Origin: a virus
Length of the DNA stretch: 52,523 nucleotides
IMG/VR virus record: IMGVR_UViG_3300047560_002701
Location: 1 to 52,523 of that record
Strand: one strand, 5' to 3'
The notes beneath the pieces were generated by a model that saw only the letters and a list, made by a program, of their open reading frames with translations, made no database searches and was not told the origin of the DNA. A program made the translations under genes and the position numbers. Of this stretch, positions 2,054 to 39,972 are shown piece after piece (the first letter of the stretch is position 1; every line of letters starts with the position of its first letter).

Positions 2054-2608
2054 ATGAATATTTTTTATCTTGACAAAGATGTTAGTCGTTGTGCCGAAAT
2101 GCATAACGACAAGCATTGTATTAAAATGATTCTTGAATATGCTCAACTTCTTTCTACTTCTCATAGGGTCATCGACGGTACTTTGTCTGTTGAATTATCT
2201 AATAACGGACGTAAACGAAAGGTCTTTCGGTTACCTGATGGTAGGGATAATGTTCTGTATTCTGCTACTCACATCAACCACCCTTCGGCTATTTGGGTAA
2301 GACAATCTCTTGATAATTATTTTTGGTTGTTTGACTTGTGGATCGAACTCATGAAGGAATACACTTATCGTTATGGCAAAAATCATAAGTGTGAATTTCT
2401 TATTGATACACTATCATTTGCACCTGATAATATTTCTAGTGGTCTATTCACTGAACCAACACCAGCTATGCCTGATGATATAAAAGTACCAGGTGACTCT
2501 ATTGCATCTTACAGAAATTACTATATAAAGAATAAGACACATCTGGCTTCATGGTCAGGTAAAGTAAATTCACGTCCAATTCCACAGTGGTATCAAAATG
2601 CAGGATAA
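2054..2608 (+). CDS. Conserved T4-like phage protein (MNIFYLD family)
   Basis: A 184-residue protein that I remember as a common conserved hypothetical of marine T4-like phages. Its pattern is MNIFYLD, then a DKH..KM motif (residues about 19-25), AQLLSTSHR, NHPSAIWVRQS, EYTYRYGK, a PAMPDD segment and YRNYY near the end. The conserved His and Asp residues suggest metal binding or catalysis, but I know of no proven function. The start is fixed by the conserved N terminus, although no Shine-Dalgarno is present. It overlaps the next gene by 11 bases. Confidence 0.75.
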   Translation: MNIFYLDKDVSRCAEMHNDKHCIKMILEYAQLLSTSHRVIDGTLSVELSNNGRKRKVFRLPDGRDNVLYSATHINHPSAIWVRQSLDNYFWLFDLWIELMKEYTYRYGKNHKCEFLIDTLSFAPDNISSGLFTEPTPAMPDDIKVPGDSIASYRNYYIKNKTHLASWSGKVNSRPIPQWYQNAG

Positions 2609-3185
2609 TTTAGATGAATACTATTACTTCTCTACACCTATCTTTAGAGAAGAGAATTTAGACTTTTTGGAAGATTTAAATAATCTTTGTGATGAAAAAT
2701 TGTCTGAATGCCAAGACGATGAAATCTGTAATCATGTCCTTCTTGAACCAGACTCAAGGTTGGATGGATTTTGCACACACTTAAATCAGACTGGTTGGGA
2801 TCTGTTAGTACTCCAGGGTTATGACCTTGACAATTTTGAGACCTATACTGGTGATTTATGGTTACATGAACACAAGAAGAATTCATATGTGGATACTCAT
2901 TCACATGGTTTTGGCGCACAGATATCCGGTTTCTATGTATTAAATTGTGGGGATGATTCACCTAAGATGGTTATTCATGATCCTAGACCAACTAAGGTAC
3001 ATTCACAACCACCAGAAAAAGATTGTTGTGACTTGACATATGCATCAACAAAGGTCAATTTTACTTTGAGTAAAGGACATATGTTCTTTATGAATTCTTG
3101 GTTGCAACATTCATTTAATATGAATTTTTCTGATACAAGTCTAAGATTCATACACTTTAACTTATACCTACAACCAAAGTCGTAA
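2598..3185 (+). CDS. 2OG-Fe(II) oxygenase family protein (1 of 4)
   Basis: A 195-residue protein resembling the phage group of putative 2-oxoglutarate/Fe(II) dioxygenases (TIGR02466-like). It has a His-x-His pair (H101, H103) in DTHSHG followed by SGFYVLN, and a distal His171 in SWLQHSF near the C terminus. Such enzymes use iron, oxygen and 2-oxoglutarate to hydroxylate substrates; the substrate here is unknown. It overlaps the preceding gene and is followed within four bases by the FmdB-like gene. Confidence 0.7.
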   Translation: MQDNLDEYYYFSTPIFREENLDFLEDLNNLCDEKLSECQDDEICNHVLLEPDSRLDGFCTHLNQTGWDLLVLQGYDLDNFETYTGDLWLHEHKKNSYVDTHSHGFGAQISGFYVLNCGDDSPKMVIHDPRPTKVHSQPPEKDCCDLTYASTKVNFTLSKGHMFFMNSWLQHSFNMNFSDTSLRFIHFNLYLQPKS

Positions 3186-3492: not shown

Positions 3493-4194
3493 ATGGCAAC
3501 AAAGAAAAGGACCGCGGCCGAAGAAGCACAAAAACAACACTTTTCAATTAGAAACATACAACCATTAACAGAGAATCAAGAGAGAGCGTTTCAAGCATAT
3601 TTTAACGGTAAACACATAGCCTTAACTGGTTCAGCAGGAACTGGTAAATCATTTCTTGCAATGTATTTGGCATTAAAGGAAATTATTAAAGAAAATGGTC
3701 AAGGTTATAATAGGTTAATTATCGTAAGGTCGGCAGTTCCGACAAGAGACTTGGGTTTTGTGCCTGGTACACTAGAAGAAAAGTCTAAGATATATCAAGA
3801 TCCTTATAAAAATATAGCTAATGAATTAATTGGGAGAGGCGATGCGTGGCATTTTCTTATTAACAAAGAGATTATCGAATTTCAGACAACTTCTTTCTTA
3901 CGTGGTCTTACTTTCAATGATTGTATCATTATCTTTGATGAGTTTCAGTCTGCTACATTTCATGAAATAGATACTGTACTAACTCGTATAGGTGAGAATT
4001 GCAGATTCATTCTTTGCGGTGACTTTAACCAGAATGATTTGAGTATTAAGAGAGAGAAATCTGGATTTGAAACTGCTTTAAATATATTGAAAAATATGGA
4101 AGATGTTGAAGAAATCAGATTTACTATATCTGATGTTGTTAGGTCTGGTTTCGTTAAAAATTATTTACATGAAAAAGAGAGACAAGGATTATAA
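3493..4194 (+). CDS. phoH: PhoH-like P-loop ATPase
   Basis: A 233-residue PhoH-like protein. Walker A is GSAGTGKS at residues 46-53 and Walker B is IIIFDE ending at residue 150, followed by the conserved FQ and the RSAVPTRDLGFVPG, CGDFNQND and SDVVRSG motifs. PhoH-like proteins are single-domain ATPases related to helicases and are among the commonest marker genes of marine phages. Their role in infection is not settled. A good ribosome site (AAGGAAC) precedes ATG 3493. Confidence 0.93.
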   Translation: MATKKRTAAEEAQKQHFSIRNIQPLTENQERAFQAYFNGKHIALTGSAGTGKSFLAMYLALKEIIKENGQGYNRLIIVRSAVPTRDLGFVPGTLEEKSKIYQDPYKNIANELIGRGDAWHFLINKEIIEFQTTSFLRGLTFNDCIIIFDEFQSATFHEIDTVLTRIGENCRFILCGDFNQNDLSIKREKSGFETALNILKNMEDVEEIRFTISDVVRSGFVKNYLHEKERQGL

Positions 4195-4195
4195 T

Positions 4196-4378
4196 ATGGA
4201 AGAAAAAATGATTAATTTGGAGATTCCGATCTCTGAATTGAATAGACTTTTTGCTGTGCTGGCTGAACAGAAGTCAGTTTATGAACAAAAATACACACAT
4301 GTTAATTCTTTGATTACATTACTTCAAAAACAATCTGTTGCTCAGATTAGTGATATTGCAAACGGCGAAAATGTTTAA
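4196..4378 (+). CDS. Small hypothetical protein (60 aa)
   Basis: I take ATG 4196 as the start because AAGGA lies eight bases upstream and the frame further upstream overlaps phoH. The product is a small amphipathic, probably helical protein (NLEIPISELNRLFAVLAEQKSVYEQK) that may form a coiled coil. No family is recognised. It begins two bases after the phoH stop and overlaps the exonuclease gene by eight bases. Confidence 0.6.
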   Translation: MEEKMINLEIPISELNRLFAVLAEQKSVYEQKYTHVNSLITLLQKQSVAQISDIANGENV

Positions 4379-5045
4379 TTATTGTCCTCCTATGATTTTG
4401 CCTGACCTGGTGTCTGAAACCAGGTCAGATGGCAGCAGAGTCTATGTCACACCTGAAGGAGAAAGTTTCTCCTCCGTCACCACCGTGGTAGGACACCACA
4501 AGAAAAAAGTGATCGCAGAGTGGAGAAACAAGGTAGGTCACGAAACTGCCAACAAAATCTCAGCACAATCATCTAAACGCGGTACAGGGGTGCATACACT
4601 TTGTGAACGGTATTTAATGAATGAGAAGACCATTGGAAAGGGTGTCATGCCGGATGCCCTTGAAATGTTTAGGTCTATTCAACCACATCTCAACAAGATC
4701 AATAATATTCACTACCTTGAACAGGCATTATGGTCCAAACAATTACAATTAGCTGGAAGAGTGGATTGTATTGCAGAATATGAAGGTCTTCTGTCTATTA
4801 TCGACTTCAAAACTTCTAGAAAAATTAAAACACTAGAACAAATTACAGATTATTTCTGGCAAACTACAGCCTATGCCTTAATGTATGAAGAACTGGTAGG
4901 TCAACCGATTGATAATCTAGTTATTATCATGGCTGTAGAACACGAACAACCGTTAATCTTTCAACAAAAAACGGAAAAACATATTGAAGGTTTGGTAAAA
5001 GTAATACATGACTACAGAACAGAGACTAACAGAGTTCAAAGATAG
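4371..5045 (+). CDS. PD-(D/E)XK exonuclease, MGME1/RecB-like
   Basis: I choose ATG 4371 (224 aa), which overlaps the preceding stop; the frame is open further upstream but without a good start. The protein shows the order of a RecB/MGME1-type nuclease: RGTGVH (GxxxH motif), then LAGRVDCIAEY with the active-site Asp, then LSIIDFKTSRK (the D...D/ExK motif), and a QTTAYALMYEE helix. This family of single-strand DNA exonucleases is frequent in marine T4-like phages and is thought to act in recombination or DNA repair. The final 38 bases overlap the next gene. Confidence 0.8.
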   Translation: MFNYCPPMILPDLVSETRSDGSRVYVTPEGESFSSVTTVVGHHKKKVIAEWRNKVGHETANKISAQSSKRGTGVHTLCERYLMNEKTIGKGVMPDALEMFRSIQPHLNKINNIHYLEQALWSKQLQLAGRVDCIAEYEGLLSIIDFKTSRKIKTLEQITDYFWQTTAYALMYEELVGQPIDNLVIIMAVEHEQPLIFQQKTEKHIEGLVKVIHDYRTETNRVQR

Positions 5046-5190
5046 AATTGAAATCTGTAGAAAATGTGAACATTTAAATACAGTTCTTGTTCAATGTAAA
5101 GTATGTGGATGTTTTCTCCACGCAAAAGCAAGAATGGAAGGTCAAGACTGTCCCAAAGGAAAATGGGTCTTGACAAAAGGAGAGGAATGA
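5008..5190 (+). CDS. Zinc-ribbon protein (DUF6171-like)
   Basis: A 60-residue protein with cysteines ordered as C-x2-C (CRKC), C-x2-C-x-C (CKVCGC) and a final CPKGKW. This matches the small zinc-ribbon proteins of T4-like phages that I remember as DUF6171. The role is unknown; a nucleic-acid or protein-binding zinc module is likely. Its 3' end contains the -35 box of the tmRNA promoter, so the two functions share DNA. Confidence 0.7.
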   Translation: MTTEQRLTEFKDRIEICRKCEHLNTVLVQCKVCGCFLHAKARMEGQDCPKGKWVLTKGEE

Positions 5191-5198
5191 TATATAAT
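5170..5198 (+). promoter_or_regulatory. Consensus sigma70 promoter of the tmRNA
   Basis: TTGACA (5170-5175), a 17-bp spacer and TATAAT (5193-5198), both perfect consensus boxes. The expected start near 5205 lies just upstream of the acceptor piece of the tmRNA. The promoter lies largely inside the 3' end of the zinc-ribbon gene. Confidence 0.85.
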
Positions 5199-5267
5199 AC
5201 AAGGATTCGTTGATGTTGACAAAATAGGTCACCTTGGACGGGAGTTCGACTCTCCCCACCTCCACCA

Positions 5268-5341
5268 AAAGCACATTGGGCACCCTGGTTAACGATAACA
5301 CCTGAACCCAATCTTAATCATTGTAACAGTGTGCTTCTGAT
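5268..5341 (+). other. Intervening segment of the pre-tmRNA
   Basis: This stretch between the two tmRNA pieces should be removed on maturation. AAGCACA (5269-5275) pairs with TGTGCTT (5330-5336), and TTGGG (5276-5280) pairs with CCCAA (5307-5311). These helices continue the acceptor stem and hold the two halves together, as in known permuted tmRNA precursors. Confidence 0.75.
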
Positions 5342-5450
5342 GGGGGTGTATTGGTTTTCGACAGGGGATAGTAAAGGTCAACGGAGAATCGGCAAAGCTA
5401 AAGTCGTTAGGATTGGGAGTTCCCGGTCAAAGAGGCAAATTAAATTAAAC

Positions 5451-5489
5451 GCAAACGATGACGTTTATTCTTACGCACTAGCTGCTTAA
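5451..5489 (+). other. tmRNA tag reading frame
   Basis: GCA AAC GAT GAC GTT TAT TCT TAC GCA CTA GCT GCT TAA encodes ANDDVYSYALAA and a stop. The resume codon is GCA, and the preceding bases end in TAAAC as in many tmRNAs. The C-terminal ALAA matches the degron read by ClpXP-type proteases. The AND start resembles proteobacterial tags more than cyanobacterial ANN-type tags. Confidence 0.9.
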
Positions 5490-5543
5490 GCGGGGTTTGG
5501 GGGTTCCTTGTCAAATAATACCCCCTCTAATTTTGAGGGTGAC

Positions 5544-6161
5544 ATGAGTTTTTCTGAAGATGGTTTTGAAGTAGTAAGATCCTTCATAAATCCACAAACA
5601 ATGAATCTATTGAAGCACGAATATCATACACTACTGGACTTATTGTTTGAAAATCAAACATATAGTGAACAATCTATCAAGTTTCCAACAGGAGAAGTAC
5701 TGACCTGTTTCAATTGGTATTCTCCAGTATTCACTGAATCTCTGTCCAAGTTATTGCAAAATAAAGTAGAAGAAATTGTAGAAAAGAAATTAGTTCCAAC
5801 ATACAGTATGGTGAGAACCTATAAAACTGGAGATGAATTATATAAACACAGAGACAGGCCGAGTTGTCAATACTCTGTTACTATGCCAATATTGACATCT
5901 ATTAATTGGCCTATATACATAACTGATAGAAAAAATGTTAACAGAAAAGTATACCTAAACGAAGGTGATATGCTTGTTTATGATGGTTTTCTGGAACATT
6001 GGAGAGAAAAATATGAAGGTGAAAAACACACACAATGCTTCCTACATTGGGTTGACGTTAATGGAAAATATAAATACCTAAAATATGACGGAAGAGCCAA
6101 TTTAGCTCTACCAATGGTGAAAATAACAGAAGAAAATGAAGCTTTCTTCAACAAACACTAA
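5544..6161 (+). CDS. 2OG-Fe(II) oxygenase family protein (2 of 4)
   Basis: I choose ATG 5544 (205 aa). A TTG at 5508 would extend the frame but lies within the probable 3' region of the tmRNA. A GAGGGTG ribosome site precedes ATG 5544. The iron-binding HxD is H102-R-D104 (KHRDRPSCQYSVTMP), followed by a strand-rich core and a distal His152 with Arg154 in FLEHWREKYEG. These features fit the 2-oxoglutarate/Fe(II) dioxygenase fold. The substrate is unknown. The ribosome site can pair with CCCTC at 5523-5527, so translation may depend on the structure at the end of the tmRNA. Confidence 0.75.
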   Translation: MSFSEDGFEVVRSFINPQTMNLLKHEYHTLLDLLFENQTYSEQSIKFPTGEVLTCFNWYSPVFTESLSKLLQNKVEEIVEKKLVPTYSMVRTYKTGDELYKHRDRPSCQYSVTMPILTSINWPIYITDRKNVNRKVYLNEGDMLVYDGFLEHWREKYEGEKHTQCFLHWVDVNGKYKYLKYDGRANLALPMVKITEENEAFFNKH

Positions 6162-6282
6162 TCAGCAGGTAACAAATCACATTAGATTATGCAATTTTGA
6201 TTCAAACGGGATCTTACAAATCCCATTCCTAAAACACTCCAAAATATAAAAAGCGAAAAAGTCTATTCGTAACTGGAGACCA

Positions 6283-6325
6283 AGAGGCTTCAGGGATTGA
6301 TCCCTTTGCCTCGTAATCGAGAGGT
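6283..6325 (+). promoter_or_regulatory. Structured leader of the RlpA-like gene, possible switch
   Basis: GAGGC (6284-6288) pairs with GCCTC (6308-6312) around an inner hairpin AGGGA/TCCCT (6292-6296 and 6301-6305, loop TTGA). The same CCTC (6309-6312) can instead pair with GAGG (6321-6324), the ribosome site of ATG 6335. The AGAGG upstream and the AGAGG of the ribosome site therefore compete for one CCTC. A further small hairpin, GGGAT/ATCCC, lies at 6208-6224. The gene-free stretch 6162-6334 holds nothing else I can identify. Confidence 0.45.
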
Positions 6326-6334
6326 AAGAAAACG

Positions 6335-6691
6335 ATGTATTCGAAACATCTAAAATCTAAACTTTTGTCATTTCTTTTTATGACATTGTTATCAAGTAAC
6401 TTATTAGCAGACCAGATAGGTATTGCATCCTGGTATGGAATTCCACATCACGGAAAAAAGACCGCATCAGGTGAACGGTATAATATGCATGGACTGTCGG
6501 CTGCACATAGAAAAATCAAATTAGGTACAAAGGTAAAAGTAACTAATCTTGAAAATAACAAATCAGTAATTGTCAAGATCAATGATCGGGGACCTTTTGT
6601 TCGTGGTAGAATACTTGATTTATCACTAGGTGCCAAAAAAGTATTAGACATGGATGGAACCACCAAAGTGTCAATTAAAATTTTAGATTGA
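6335..6691 (+). CDS. Secreted RlpA-like double-psi beta-barrel protein
   Basis: A 118-residue protein with an N-terminal signal peptide (about residues 1-25: basic start, LLSFLFMTLLSS core, cleavage near LLA-D). The mature part is a single RlpA-like domain with ASWYG, KTASGE, AAHRKIKLGTKVKV and INDRGPF, the last holding the Asp used by RlpA lytic transglycosylases. RlpA cleaves peptidoglycan strands lacking peptide side chains. Here it may act in the periplasm on the host wall during lysis or infection. It lacks the SPOR domain of many bacterial RlpA proteins. Confidence 0.85.
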   Translation: MYSKHLKSKLLSFLFMTLLSSNLLADQIGIASWYGIPHHGKKTASGERYNMHGLSAAHRKIKLGTKVKVTNLENNKSVIVKINDRGPFVRGRILDLSLGAKKVLDMDGTTKVSIKILD

Positions 6692-6740: not shown

Positions 6741-6971
6741 ATGGCCTCCAAACCAAACATAGAAGAAATAAAAAAGTTTAGTCTGATGATAGACGAACTG
6801 GCATCCGAATTGGGTTGTACCCGATTGGATGCCATATTGTTTCATTGTGATAAGACTGGATTAGAAGTTGAGGTTGCAAGTACCTTGATTTCTAATGCTC
6901 TTAAATCCAGAATACGCGAAGAATCTGAACGTGAAAACCTAGTTAAGAGGAGTTCAAGACTGCCTATATGA
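6741..6971 (+). CDS. gp33: Late-transcription co-activator (T4 gp33-like)
   Basis: A 76-residue protein that resembles gp33 of marine T4-like phages: PNIEEIKKFS, LGCTRLDAILFHCDKTGLEVEVASTLIS, and a basic to hydrophobic tail. In T4, gp33 links RNA polymerase carrying the late sigma gp55 to the sliding clamp gp45 and so couples late transcription to replication. Its position directly before gp59, as in T4 where genes 59 and 33 are neighbours, supports the call. It overlaps gp59 by four bases. Confidence 0.75.
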   Translation: MASKPNIEEIKKFSLMIDELASELGCTRLDAILFHCDKTGLEVEVASTLISNALKSRIREESERENLVKRSSRLPI

Positions 6972-7588
6972 ATCTAGAAGAAAATACGGGGTTTGCAGCC
7001 TATGCAATATACAACGCTATTCATCTACACTTCACCAGCAGTTCTTATAATTTTCAAAAATATAATGGTAAGACTAACGTATCAAAAGATTCCTTTCTAA
7101 AACGAAAGGACAAATACCACTTCTATAAACTGTCTAGAAAGTATTCAATTGAAGAATTAAAAGACTTCTTTATTGCAAATTTCTTAGACACTAGTGTGAA
7201 GTGGGTAGGTGATATTTCGGGTGAAGAAGGTGAAAAGTCCTACTTAAAATGGAAGAAACGCAAAGAGAGTTTGTCTTATATTTTCCAGAATGATATTGAT
7301 TTCTTATTGGATCAGGTAAAGAAACCAGATCATCTTCTGGTTGTTAAGTCAGGTAACTATCCTAAACTACTTGAGGTAACAATGCAAGGTAGAGTTGAGG
7401 TAGAAACCACCTGCATTCTTAATGACATGATGAACTTCTTACCTATGTGGAACAAAAAGATAACGGATGATATTATCTGGCCAGACTGGAGAATGAAAAT
7501 AGATAAGTATACACCATTCATCGAATATAACAAAACTAAATATAAATTATTGTTGACAAAGAAGATTAAAGACCATGAAGAAACCTGA
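6968..7588 (+). CDS. gp59: Loader of gp41 DNA helicase (T4 gp59-like)
   Basis: A 206-residue protein close in length to T4 gp59 (217 aa). It shares the recognisable N-terminal half KRKDKYHFYKLSRKY, then LKDFFIANFL and WVGDISGEEG, as in gp59 (RRDKYFFQKLSEKY, WIGDIS). gp59 binds fork DNA and gp32 and loads the replicative helicase gp41. The C-terminal half is all-helical and less conserved. The gene overlaps gp33 and the next gene, in a gp33, gp59, nucleotidase, gp32 order. Confidence 0.85.
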   Translation: MNLEENTGFAAYAIYNAIHLHFTSSSYNFQKYNGKTNVSKDSFLKRKDKYHFYKLSRKYSIEELKDFFIANFLDTSVKWVGDISGEEGEKSYLKWKKRKESLSYIFQNDIDFLLDQVKKPDHLLVVKSGNYPKLLEVTMQGRVEVETTCILNDMMNFLPMWNKKITDDIIWPDWRMKIDKYTPFIEYNKTKYKLLLTKKIKDHEET

Positions 7589-8162: not shown

Positions 8163-9065
8163 ATGTCATTTGCAAATCTTAAGCGTCAATCAGGCAATTT
8201 GGATAAGTTAGCTAAGGCGCTTGAACAAATCAGTTCTTCAAACGAAGGTGCAGGTAATCAGGACAATTTCTGGAAACCTGAAGTTGATAAGGCAGGCAAT
8301 GGTCTTGCAACAATTCGTTTTCTCCCAGCACCAGAAGTCGATGGTGATGATTCTCTGCCTTGGGTAAAGATCTTCACACATGGTTTCCAAGGTCCAGGCG
8401 GATGGTTTATTGATAACTGTCTGACCACCAAGAATCAGCAATGCCCTGTTTGTGAATCAAACTCTGCATTGTGGAACTCTGGCATCGAAGCAAACAAGCA
8501 GATTGCTCGTGATCGTAAACGTAGACTTTCATATATTGCTAATGTCTACATCGTTTCTGATCCTAAACACCCAGAAAACGAAGGTCAAGTAAAACTGTTT
8601 AAGTTTGGTAAGAAGATCTTCGATAAGATCACCGAAGCAATGAATCCTCCTTTTGAGGATGAAACTCCTATCAATCCCTTTGATATGTGGGCAGGTGCAA
8701 ACTTTAAGTTGAAGATTCGTAAGGTGGCTGGTTATCAGAACTATGATTCATCTGAATTTGAAGATTCATCCGTTCTTGGTAACTTTGATGATGCCAAGTT
8801 GGAATCAATCTGGAAGATGGAACACTCACTGCAAGAACTGGTTTCTGATAAGGAATTCAAGTCTTATGATGATCTCAAGAAGAGGTTGGATCGAGTCCTA
8901 GGTCAGGCGGTAGAACGTCCTAAGACCACAGTGGAAACCATCAAGGAACAAACTCGTTCACAACCAGTTAAGGATGAACGTGATGACACTCCTTGGGAAG
9001 ACACTTCAACAGTAGAGGAAGATGACGATATGGCATACTTCAGAAACTTGGCTGAAGAAGATTAA
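8163..9065 (+). CDS. gp32: Single-stranded DNA-binding protein (T4 gp32)
   Basis: A 300-residue protein, similar in size to T4 gp32 (301 aa). The N terminus has the basic FANLKRQSG element used for cooperative binding. The core has zinc ligands in the gp32 order: His73, Cys86, Cys94 and Cys97 (THGF...NCLTTKNQQCPVCES). FKFGKKIFDKI and INPFDMWAGANFKLKI belong to the OB-fold core. The C terminus is strongly acidic (WEDTSTVEEDDD), the tail that contacts other replication proteins. It coats single-stranded DNA at the fork and works with gp59. Confidence 0.93.
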   Translation: MSFANLKRQSGNLDKLAKALEQISSSNEGAGNQDNFWKPEVDKAGNGLATIRFLPAPEVDGDDSLPWVKIFTHGFQGPGGWFIDNCLTTKNQQCPVCESNSALWNSGIEANKQIARDRKRRLSYIANVYIVSDPKHPENEGQVKLFKFGKKIFDKITEAMNPPFEDETPINPFDMWAGANFKLKIRKVAGYQNYDSSEFEDSSVLGNFDDAKLESIWKMEHSLQELVSDKEFKSYDDLKKRLDRVLGQAVERPKTTVETIKEQTRSQPVKDERDDTPWEDTSTVEEDDDMAYFRNLAEED

Positions 9066-35991: not shown

Positions 35992-38347
35992 TACAGTTTC
36001 CCAAATCAGTTATAATAATACTTTCGGCGACTGGGTAGTTGCAACAAATTCATTGATACGAGAAAACAATGATTTTGCCGCAAACAACTTTGTTAAACCT
36101 ACGGGAACTCTTTTTCTAAATGAACCCACTCTCGGTTTACAGGTAGCAAACAATGCAATCGTTGCAGGTCAATTACAGGTAACAGGTGTAGGTTCTTCTG
36201 CTCTAGTACAAAACAACCTTCGCGTTGACAGACAAGTATATTTCACAAATACCACATTAGGTTTGGTCAACTCAGGCCAAGCAAATATTGGTGGTATATT
36301 GATGGCACTTGGTTCAGGTACAAGTCTTTACGCCGCAAACTCGGTGCATATCAGTGGCACCACCAGAATGAACAGTACTGTGATTATCACAGGTAATACA
36401 AACATATCAAATACTGTTTACATCTCAGGTACAACAAATATTTCCAATACTGTCTATGTAACAGGAAGTGGAAGTATGACTGGTTCACTTGTAATCGGTG
36501 GTTCAGCAGCCGCTATTGGTGCTATACAGGCCAACTTCCTAAAAGGAAATACTGGTGTAGATACTACCACCATGACATCCAATATCATTAGAAATACTGG
36601 TATTGCATACACAGACACATTACAAGCAAACAACCTTGTAACAACAGCCAACTTAATTGTTACTGGCGCAAGTTACTTTGACGTTATCAACGCAAATACT
36701 GCATTTGTTGGTCCTAAAATATCCATTTCAAGTCTGTTTGATGCCAATTCTGCGGCAGCATTCTTCGGTTCTGTAAAGACAAACAGTGATTTGGTTGTTG
36801 GCGGCAACTTTGTAATTAACGGAACAACCGTATACAACTCCAATACTCTGATTATCAGTTCAAATCTTCCAAATCAAAACTGTTTGTTTGGAACATTCAG
36901 AACAGCACAAACCGGAAATTCATACATCAAATGGAATGAAACCAACAAGTATTGGGAAACAAATGACGTTTTCACTGGTACATACTATAGGTTGTTAACA
37001 GACCAGTATGCCAATAACTCACTAACAAATTCAAGTTCTTCGAATGTTGCCACATCTTTCGTGGCCAATACAATATACACCTATTCACAAGCAGCATTTG
37101 CTCTAGCTAACACAACAGCATCAACACTGTCTGCTAATACTTCTACACTAAGCAACTCAATAAGTGTAATTCAAGGTGTTGATCTTACACAGAACACCAA
37201 TATAACCAATCTAACAAATTGGTTGAGTTCTAATGTGTCTTATACACAAGCAATCAACAATGCACAGAACTCAGCAATAACAATTATACAGGGTGTTGAT
37301 AACACACAGAATACAGTCATCAACAACCTATCAAACTCTCTGACATCAAATGTTACATATCTGAATGGTATTGCAAATACACAAAATAGTACAATAACGT
37401 CTGTAAACAATTATGCACAGTCCGCGTTCGACAGAGCAAATAATGCGTCAGCCGCATTAACATTTAATGGTTCTACTGGTTCTGCAAATGCAAATGCCGC
37501 AGGTTACCTGGTTATAACTGGCAATACTGGTGTATCTGTAGTAGGTTCTTCAAATATATTGACGATTAACCTGCCACAAGACCTTAGACAATCAGCAAAT
37601 CCTTCGTTCACCACTATAACATCATCTGTTGCTAATGGTACTGCACCATTCTCCGTAACTTCGTCTACGATGGTTAATAACCTAAACGCACAGTATATTG
37701 GTGGTCAACCATTATCATACTTCGGTGATGCTGCAAACCTATCAGGAACCATACCTTCAGCAGTTCTAGGAAATTCAGCACTGTTTGTTGGTACTTCATC
37801 AATATCATTAAACAGAACTAGTGGCACACAGACACTAACGGGAGTTAGTATTGATGGTTCTGCCGGTTCAGTTATGGCAAATACCATAACAGGAACAACA
37901 TTATCAAGTAGTGTTGCAAACTCATCCATAACTTCACTGGGCACATTAACAGCATTAAATGTTAATGGTGCAATGTCACTTACTGGTAACCCAGCAATAA
38001 CAGGACAAGCTAGTGCGACAAAGGGATATAGAGAAGGTGTGGTTGCAGTAGGTACTGTTTCAAGTCCAACAAACTTAGACTTGTCTCTAGGTAATGTATT
38101 CACTCTAACTCTGGCTGCAAGCACAACACTTACATTCACTAATGTTCCTTCTTCTGGTTCAGTGTGTTATGTAACTCTTGTTATTACACAAGACGGAACA
38201 GGAAGTAGAAATCCATCATTCTCACCAACACCCAGATGGACAGACAGTTCTGCACCTACGTTATCCGGCGCAAATAAAATAGATGTATTGACTTTCTTGT
38301 GTGTTGCAGGAAGTTTCTACGGTTCTTATGCAATGGCAAATATGTAA
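35984..38347 (+). CDS. Tail fibre protein 1
   Basis: A 787-residue fibre-type protein. The N terminus has SYNNTFGDWVVATNSLIRENN, which probably attaches to the baseplate. Repeats rich in Asn, Thr, Ser and Gly follow (for example NISNTVYISGTTNISNTVYV at about 140-165), with helical linkers at about 355-490 (SVIQGVDLTQNTNITNLTNW) and a compact beta-rich C-terminal domain. The halogenase gene follows with a gap of 17 bases. Confidence 0.75.
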   Translation: MANTVSQISYNNTFGDWVVATNSLIRENNDFAANNFVKPTGTLFLNEPTLGLQVANNAIVAGQLQVTGVGSSALVQNNLRVDRQVYFTNTTLGLVNSGQANIGGILMALGSGTSLYAANSVHISGTTRMNSTVIITGNTNISNTVYISGTTNISNTVYVTGSGSMTGSLVIGGSAAAIGAIQANFLKGNTGVDTTTMTSNIIRNTGIAYTDTLQANNLVTTANLIVTGASYFDVINANTAFVGPKISISSLFDANSAAAFFGSVKTNSDLVVGGNFVINGTTVYNSNTLIISSNLPNQNCLFGTFRTAQTGNSYIKWNETNKYWETNDVFTGTYYRLLTDQYANNSLTNSSSSNVATSFVANTIYTYSQAAFALANTTASTLSANTSTLSNSISVIQGVDLTQNTNITNLTNWLSSNVSYTQAINNAQNSAITIIQGVDNTQNTVINNLSNSLTSNVTYLNGIANTQNSTITSVNNYAQSAFDRANNASAALTFNGSTGSANANAAGYLVITGNTGVSVVGSSNILTINLPQDLRQSANPSFTTITSSVANGTAPFSVTSSTMVNNLNAQYIGGQPLSYFGDAANLSGTIPSAVLGNSALFVGTSSISLNRTSGTQTLTGVSIDGSAGSVMANTITGTTLSSSVANSSITSLGTLTALNVNGAMSLTGNPAITGQASATKGYREGVVAVGTVSSPTNLDLSLGNVFTLTLAASTTLTFTNVPSSGSVCYVTLVITQDGTGSRNPSFSPTPRWTDSSAPTLSGANKIDVLTFLCVAGSFYGSYAMANM

Positions 38348-38364
38348 TTAAACTTATAGTAATT

Positions 38365-39972
38365 ATGAAAAATGAAATTGAGTCTATTATCATCGTTGGA
38401 GGTGGCAGTTCTGGTTGGATGACCGCAGCTGCCATTATCAAAAACCTACCAAATATAAAGTTAACCCTAATAGAATCTCCAAACATACCAATCATCGGTG
38501 TGGGTGAAAGTACCTTAGGACACATTAATGAATATATGCATTTTATCGGTCTCAAAGACGAAGACTGGATGAAACACTGTAATGCAACATATAAAACATC
38601 GATAAAGTTCACCGACTTTGCTAACAACCCACAAGAAAAACCCACATCATTTCATTATCCATTTGGTTGTTTTGATTTCACAGATAAACCCACTGGAATA
38701 ATGGATTGGTTTATATACAAAGCCAAGAATCCAGACACACCCAACAGCAACTTTGCTGAATTCTATCATGACGCTGTTTTTATGATAGATGAAAACAAAT
38801 TGACAAAAAATGAAAATGGTTGTATAAGAAATTTCATTTTCAATAGGGATACCGCATACCATATGGATGCCTCACTCTTTGGAAATTATCTAAGAGATCA
38901 TATCTGTAAACCAAATAATATCAGACACATACTATCTAATGTGAAGGACATCAAACTGGACAAAGAGGGTGCAGTGACATCCGTTGTTACTGACTCGGGT
39001 GAATATGATGCGGACCTGTATATTGATTGTACTGGATTTAAATCTCTGATATTAGATCAGAAAATGAAAGTGCCTTTCATGTCGTTCCATGATACACTAA
39101 TGAATGACAGAGCAATTGCAACTATTATTGACTATGTTGATAAAGAAAAGGAAATGGAATCAGTTACAAACTGCACTGCTATTGAGTGTGGTTGGGTGTG
39201 GAACATTCCATTATGGAACAGAATAGGAACTGGTTACGTTTATTCAAGTGAATTCGCAACCGAAGAACAAGCATTAGAACAATTTAAGAGACACCTAAAG
39301 TCAAACAGAATGATATGTCAAGATGATGATAGGGTTGAAAAGGCCGAATACAGACATATCAAGATAAGGCATGGTGTACATGAACAATCTTGGGTAAAAA
39401 ATGTTGTTGGTATAGGACTGTCAAATGGATTTATCGAACCATTAGAATCAACAGGCCTTATGTTGACACATGAAGCAATTTTAAAAATGGTGAACATACT
39501 TAAAACTCGGAATTGTGTAGTCACAAAATTTGATGTGGATGGTTACAACTTCAATCTTAGACAACAAATTCTAGGATTTAAAGAATTCATCTCTTTACAT
39601 TATGCATTAAGTGCCAGAAGAGATACTCCATATTGGAAAAAAGTATCTCAACAAATAACATATTGTCCTTCGATGTTGGATAAAGAGACTGGATCAAATC
39701 AGTATGCGAATGTGTCCAATTTCGGAATATCAAAAAGAGAATTCAATTCAGATATGGGTGGAATACCATATATTGCAGCAGGAATGGGTTTAAATCCAGT
39801 GGATGATCGTAGAGTAGATTTTATAAATAGGTTACAAGATTCCAATGCTGATGAATATTTTTGGGCAAGGACGAGAGATGTGTGGGAACTTCACGTTAGA
39901 GATTTGAAAAGGATATTAAAGAGGTTGCCAACACACTATAAATATCTTTTAGATAATATTTACAACAAGTAA
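38365..39972 (+). CDS. Flavin-dependent (tryptophan-type) halogenase
   Basis: I take ATG 38365 (535 aa); the frame is open further upstream but overlaps the fibre gene. FAD-binding GGGSSG is at residues 12-17 and IGVGESTLG follows. The catalytic Lys is most likely Lys77 in TYKTSIKF. The halogenase motif WxWxIP is W277-V-W279-N-I-P282. GFIEPLESTG (356-364) carries Glu361 and Ser362, matching Glu346/Ser347 of PrnA. These enzymes use reduced flavin, oxygen and halide to halogenate aromatic substrates. A cyanophage relative (VirX1 of Syn10) is known to iodinate diverse substrates. Confidence 0.92.
   Translation: MKNEIESIIIVGGGSSGWMTAAAIIKNLPNIKLTLIESPNIPIIGVGESTLGHINEYMHFIGLKDEDWMKHCNATYKTSIKFTDFANNPQEKPTSFHYPFGCFDFTDKPTGIMDWFIYKAKNPDTPNSNFAEFYHDAVFMIDENKLTKNENGCIRNFIFNRDTAYHMDASLFGNYLRDHICKPNNIRHILSNVKDIKLDKEGAVTSVVTDSGEYDADLYIDCTGFKSLILDQKMKVPFMSFHDTLMNDRAIATIIDYVDKEKEMESVTNCTAIECGWVWNIPLWNRIGTGYVYSSEFATEEQALEQFKRHLKSNRMICQDDDRVEKAEYRHIKIRHGVHEQSWVKNVVGIGLSNGFIEPLESTGLMLTHEAILKMVNILKTRNCVVTKFDVDGYNFNLRQQILGFKEFISLHYALSARRDTPYWKKVSQQITYCPSMLDKETGSNQYANVSNFGISKREFNSDMGGIPYIAAGMGLNPVDDRRVDFINRLQDSNADEYFWARTRDVWELHVRDLKRILKRLPTHYKYLLDNIYNK

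Follow-up and report, generated by a model that had tools for sequence, protein, structure and literature searches.

Genomic setting of the locus

The stretch of DNA analysed here, hereafter the window, is a virus record of 52.5 kb carrying T4-like replication and tail genes. Homologues of PhoH, gp59, gp33, gp32, a gp6-type baseplate wedge, gp53 and others are encoded in it, which confirms the T4-like phage setting claimed in an earlier note on this DNA. Around the locus of interest, the genes are arranged in the order PhoH, PD-(D/E)XK exonuclease, tmRNA, gp33, gp59 and gp32 (Table 1). A small DUF6171 gene lies between the exonuclease and the tmRNA, with its end overlapping the tmRNA promoter, and an oxygenase-like gene (5508-6161) follows the tmRNA, ahead of gp33, gp59 and gp32. 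This latter gene matches PHROGs labelled 'ferrochelatase' and has no Pfam match. It was considered as an obligate partner of the tmRNA and rejected, as the search for viral relatives found no more than two, both distant and neither of them at a locus with a tmRNA match. Near the tmRNA there is also a second oxygenase-like gene (2598-3185), with matches to 2OG-Fe(II) oxygenase families. Elsewhere in the window, a metabolic gene is found among structural genes, namely an ORF of 557 amino acids (38299-39972) that matches the phage tryptophan-halogenase family phrog_2928 (E 2.1e-155).

Table 1. Features of the tmRNA locus and its conserved neighbours, in window coordinates.
Feature	Position	Strand	Evidence
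PhoH-like ATPase, conserved neighbour	3493-4194	+	PF02562, E 4.1e-48; synteny
PD-(D/E)XK exonuclease, conserved upstream neighbour	4338-5045	+	phrog_298, E 3.5e-70; synteny
Sigma-70 promoter: TTGACA 5170-5175, 17 nt, TATAAT 5193-5198	5170-5198	+	12/12 consensus match
Acceptor piece, first in gene	5204-5267	+	RF04321 match, sequence, fold
5' stretch of acceptor piece, pairing with second piece	within 5204-5267	+	RF04321 match, sequence, fold
T arm	5240-5256	+	sequence, fold
Acceptor 3' strand	5257-5263	+	sequence
Discriminator A, then encoded CCA	5264; 5265-5267	+	sequence
Intervening segment, 74 nt, probably removed on maturation	5268-5341	+	analogy with bacterial two-piece tmRNA (removal)
Coding piece, second in gene: acceptor 5' strand, D-like region, tag frame	5342-5489	+	RF04321 match, ARAGORN
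Acceptor 5' strand GGGGGTG; G3 (5344) pairs with U5261	5342-5348	+	sequence
Tag reading frame: resume codon GCA 5451-5453, ANDDVYSYALAA, stop TAA 5487-5489	5451-5489	+	ARAGORN, sequence
3' tail, last part of alpha_tmRNA model; probable mature 3' region	5490-5528	+	alpha_tmRNA alignment to 5528
gp33-like late-promoter regulator, conserved downstream neighbour	6741-6971	+	phrog_254, E 2.2e-13; synteny
gp59 helicase loader, conserved downstream neighbour	6968-7588	+	PF08993, E 1.9e-13
gp32 single-strand DNA-binding protein, conserved downstream neighbour	8163-9065	+	PF08804, E 4.5e-47

Identity and anatomy of the permuted tmRNA gene

Positions 5204-5528 of the window constitute a complete circularly permuted (two-piece) tmRNA gene. 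When the whole window was searched with cmscan, the Rfam model RF04321 (tmRNA_permuted) matched 5204-5489 on the plus strand with 109.6 bits (gathering score 47, E 1.5e-20), the alignment covering the full model (positions 1-213 of 213). The match is far above chance, and a second search recovered it too (E 3.5e-24). The alphaproteobacterial model RF01849 (alpha_tmRNA) matched 5166-5528 with 66.3 bits, also over its gathering score of 50, and the betaproteobacterial model RF01850 (beta_tmRNA) reached 76 bits, just short of its gathering score of 84. Independently, ARAGORN called a permuted tmRNA (tmRNA*) with the tag (A)ANDDVYSYALAA*. These results bear out the earlier note, which had recognised a circularly permuted tmRNA and had suggested the Rfam permuted models as a check. 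Its placing of the CCA end at 5267, of the start of the 5' acceptor strand at 5342 and of the end of the tag frame at 5489 was right as well.

The permuted order can be read directly, the CCA (5265-5267) lying upstream of both G1 (5342) and the tag frame. As had been proposed, all seven acceptor pairs form, between CACCTCC (5257-5263) and GGGGGTG (5342-5348), and the third of them, G5344-U5261, is the G3-U70 pair that confers alanine identity. The T arm reads GGGAG/TTCGACT/CTCCC (5240-5256). When 5204-5535 was folded alone, the minimum-energy structure contained the T arm, the acceptor stem and the precursor helix described below (z -2.46). Thus, all parts of an active tmRNA are present: a 7/7 acceptor stem with G3-U70, a CCA, a T arm, a resume codon, a tag that retains the C-terminal ALAA degron, and a promoter.

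The promoter, which had been described as a consensus one, matches the sigma-70 consensus at 12/12 positions with a spacing of 17 nt. Upstream of 86 viral permuted-tmRNA loci, sigma-70 sites matching at 12/12 were found in 9 and at 11/12 or better in 20; the same search in 1720 shuffles returned 0 and 6, respectively. Such a consensus site points to transcription by the host polymerase, and the phage tmRNA gene is therefore probably expressed early in infection.

The precursor helix and selection on RNA structure

In the window, the two ends of the intervening segment form a helix of 10 bp (5269-5278 / 5327-5336), separated from G1 by 5 nt (CTGAT, 5337-5341). Over 37 phage loci this precursor helix has a mean length of 10.4 bp, compared with 4.4 in shuffled loops. 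Counted together over 33 distinct phage loci that are syntenic, the acceptor stem and the precursor helix are 95.3% paired, and two-sided changes are seen at 16 of their 18 pairs. For these loci the covariation score comes to 0.607, whereas shuffles give 0.175 and slid controls no more than 0.143; the rows scored are joined pieces rather than continuous genes, each made by linking the acceptor strands to the intervening segment's flanks. Covariation of this strength indicates that the gene is under selection as an RNA.

Within this variable stem the G-U pair is constant in 33/33 phage loci while neighbouring pairs swap, a constancy that is partly built in, as the script extracting most of the loci demanded G3 and U70. 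The pair is present in every syntenic ARAGORN or Rfam call (one of them, L150, read by eye). Seven apparent exceptions were treated as mis-registrations by the extraction script; we corrected the viral rows among them and left out three bacterial ones. We also considered whether the variety of acceptor stems might be a phage peculiarity, for example against nucleases, and rejected this since bacterial permuted tmRNAs vary likewise. The intervening segment itself spans roughly 27 to 172 nt in phage permuted tmRNAs (e.g. L135, L201, L214), longer and more variable than the bacterial segments seen here, which are mostly 22-50 nt.

A fixed place in aquatic T4-like phages

We then looked at the position of the gene in other phages by two independent routes. 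Relatives were first identified through gp32, and 28 of their loci extend 5.4 kb or more upstream of that gene. In 25 of these, ARAGORN or Rfam finds a permuted tmRNA at the same place; neither method found one in the remaining three, which are close relatives (L131, L136 and L153). The second route used a DNA pattern of the T arm and acceptor, which is blind to neighbouring genes. Of the viral permuted tmRNAs picked in this way, a non-random sample, 33 of 49 among the matches listed sit in the syntenic place, defined by a same-strand exonuclease upstream or by gp33, gp59 or gp32 downstream, many of the loci being short. The phages Mosig and Melnitz share the place as well, their tmRNA lying between a PD-(D/E)XK nuclease and a gp33-like gene. 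Cyanophage S-H9-2 keeps the order of PhoH, the exonuclease, gp33 and gp32 and lacks the tmRNA among them, and its record gives no RF04321 match. RF04321 gave no match in any of the five cyanophage records and the one Caulobacter phage record searched, and matched one of two single-cell marine virus records. Together, these results show that the permuted tmRNA recurs at one fixed place across a broad group of aquatic T4-like phages, where it is probably long established, and also that it is dispensable for the phage, being absent from L131, L136, L153 and the S-H9-2 module.

Relation to known permuted tmRNAs

The earlier note had implied that a permuted tmRNA in such a phage was new. This is not borne out, as Buchholz et al. 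described a two-piece tmRNA in phage Melnitz in 2022 and counted 53 two-piece forms, 50 of them aquatic, among 133 unique phage tmRNA structures (PMC9004378); a tmRNA database of 2025 holds 79 unique phage sequences (PMC11915505). What is new here is the fixed syntenic place, the S-H9-2 module without a tmRNA, the covariation and the absence of SmpB (see below). The tmRNAs of Melnitz, a Methylophilales phage, and Mosig, a Pelagibacter phage, resemble that of the window in being two-piece, in matching RF04321 and in belonging to T4-like aquatic phages without SmpB. They differ from it in their tags, GEDNFALAA and ANDNYVPVDYALAA as against ANDDVYSYALAA. A glutamine riboswitch is reported to accompany the Melnitz gene and is not a defining feature (PMC9004378). 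At the window gene such a companion was rejected: a search of the window at the gathering score detected no glutamine riboswitch of the glnA type, and neither did one of 4900-6400 that admitted E values up to 1. An 8-kb stretch of Mosig gave none at the gathering score either, although Mosig is credited with one (PMC9004378). Mosig also has a manA-family RNA (RF01745, 64 bits; L213:7372-7579), some 3 kb downstream of its tmRNA.

Among bacterial forms, the betaproteobacterial permuted tmRNA (RF01850) shares the permuted order, a similar 5' piece and tags such as ANDERFALAA with the phage genes, and some relatives reach 148 (L053), 140 (L015) and 132 bits (L200) with that model. The phage genes nearly always encode the CCA, whereas several of the betaproteobacterial genes fetched do not encode it in full. 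In many bacterial permuted genes (loci L338-L342, L344 and L368-L372), the final A is not encoded, the acceptor strand being followed by ACCC or ACCT. The alphaproteobacterial form (RF01849) is likewise permuted, and the window scores above the gathering score of its model. Bacterial alpha genes nevertheless form a separate group on the tree and have a C-rich T arm (CCGGGGGCGGTACCCGG), unlike that of the window. The tmRNAs of the mycobacteriophage Bxz1 group and of Bacillus phage G have the standard gene order. These one-piece tmRNAs are likewise encoded by the phage (PMC4131195).

The nearest relative of the window tmRNA is that of viral contig IMGVR_UViG_3300046011_002303 (L179), with 85% identity over 187 columns. 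It shares the 5' piece, being the only other viral contig matched by the 5'-piece pattern, and differs in its tag, AANDADYGVYALAA as against ANDDVYSYALAA. The same pattern, applied to the genome collection in search of an identical bacterial tmRNA for host assignment, matched nothing. On the tree, every row is viral in the starred sets that include the window, counting sets of no more than half of the rows. Mosig and Melnitz fall beside the alphaproteobacterial tmRNAs with modest support, whereas the window does not. A quick tree nests the bacterial permuted groups among the viral ones; the bacterial genes came from 300 genomes of a single order plus 398 of the phylum to which it belongs, with an Achromobacter genome at the centre of the sampling. 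In AU tests on about 210 columns, a single clade was rejected neither for all permuted genes (p 0.86) nor for the bacterial (p 0.62) or the viral ones (p 0.29).

Recurrence at one genomic place suggests that the gene may have been inherited within the phage lineage. On this view, phage ssrA need not mark a recent host switch, as it was taken to do for Melnitz (PMC9004378). A bolder scenario, in which aquatic T4-like phages are an old reservoir of the permuted tmRNA from which some two-piece bacterial lineages received it, seems to us rather unlikely. Settling the direction of transfer would bear on how the permuted tmRNA arose in separate bacterial lineages.

Function of the phage tmRNA

The host presumably has a tmRNA of its own, so the benefit of a phage copy is not obvious. 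Several functional options for phage tmRNA have been proposed (PMC9004378) and are weighed here. The best reading, judged from gene content and sequence, would be the one put forward in the earlier note, that the phage supplements or takes over trans-translation; an active supplement to the host system is, in our view, probably what the gene provides. It would work as follows. Host RNA polymerase would transcribe the gene from the sigma-70 promoter, probably early. In the precursor, the acceptor stem is extended by the helix across the intervening segment, as the covariation shows, and by analogy with bacterial two-piece tmRNA, host tRNA-processing enzymes would excise this segment, leaving an acceptor piece with its CCA and a coding piece. 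Host AlaRS would charge the tmRNA through G3-U70, and host SmpB and EF-Tu would bring it to ribosomes stalled on broken mRNAs, where translation would resume at GCA and append AANDDVYSYALAA, a tag whose last residues form the usual ALAA degron. Both the tag and the TLD are conserved. As the phage destroys host nucleic acids and mRNAs are being cut, supplemented rescue would return ribosomes to phage protein synthesis. The main benefit is most likely that ribosomes are kept free while mRNAs break in lytic infection.

The supplement would depend on host partners. SmpB was not found in any of 22 phage records, comprising 19 related ones (four of them of 168-174 kb), Mosig, Melnitz and the window, while control genomes were positive as expected. 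A phage-supplied SmpB was therefore rejected and host SmpB is needed; by its gene content, the phage must rely on the host for SmpB, AlaRS, EF-Tu and the processing enzymes.

Could the gene instead be a passenger, a functionless fragment of host ssrA or the remnant of an integration site acquired by chance? ssrA is a common integration site of prophages, and fragments of it are found in them (PMC9004378). Here, the gene is complete, its promoter matches at 12/12, its place is kept across diverse phages, and it is surrounded by a T4-like replication module with no integrase among the proteins scanned. The strong covariation brings this explanation close to refuted, and we regard it as extremely improbable. 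The ribosome-rescue RNA is rather a recurrent gene at one spot in widespread aquatic T4-like phages than a chance pick-up, and the recurrence of a gene selected for its structure argues that trans-translation is worth carrying in lytic infection.

Given an active gene, its main role might lie less in rescuing ribosomes than in marking host or phage proteins for degradation, so as to recycle amino acids or to time the infection. Such specialised tagging was proposed for Melnitz by Buchholz et al. (PMC9004378), and early expression from a consensus sigma-70 promoter would fit it. Yet tmRNA has no known means of selecting proteins by identity, the phage tag is similar to ordinary bacterial ones (ANDxxxALAA) and nothing in the sequence indicates selectivity, so we think this role quite unlikely. 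The phage RNA might also act against the host system, titrating SmpB as a competitor, a role that has been proposed for mycobacteriophage DS6A and its TLD-only tmRNA. That the phage brings no SmpB would suit an inhibitor, and a TLD-only phage tmRNA expressed in E. coli does inhibit the endogenous tmRNA (PMC11915505; PMC4131195). We nonetheless hold inhibition to be very unlikely at this locus: unlike in DS6A, the coding piece is complete in the window, including its resume codon and an ALAA tag, and tags that mostly end in LAA are retained across the phage loci, none of which an inhibitor needs.
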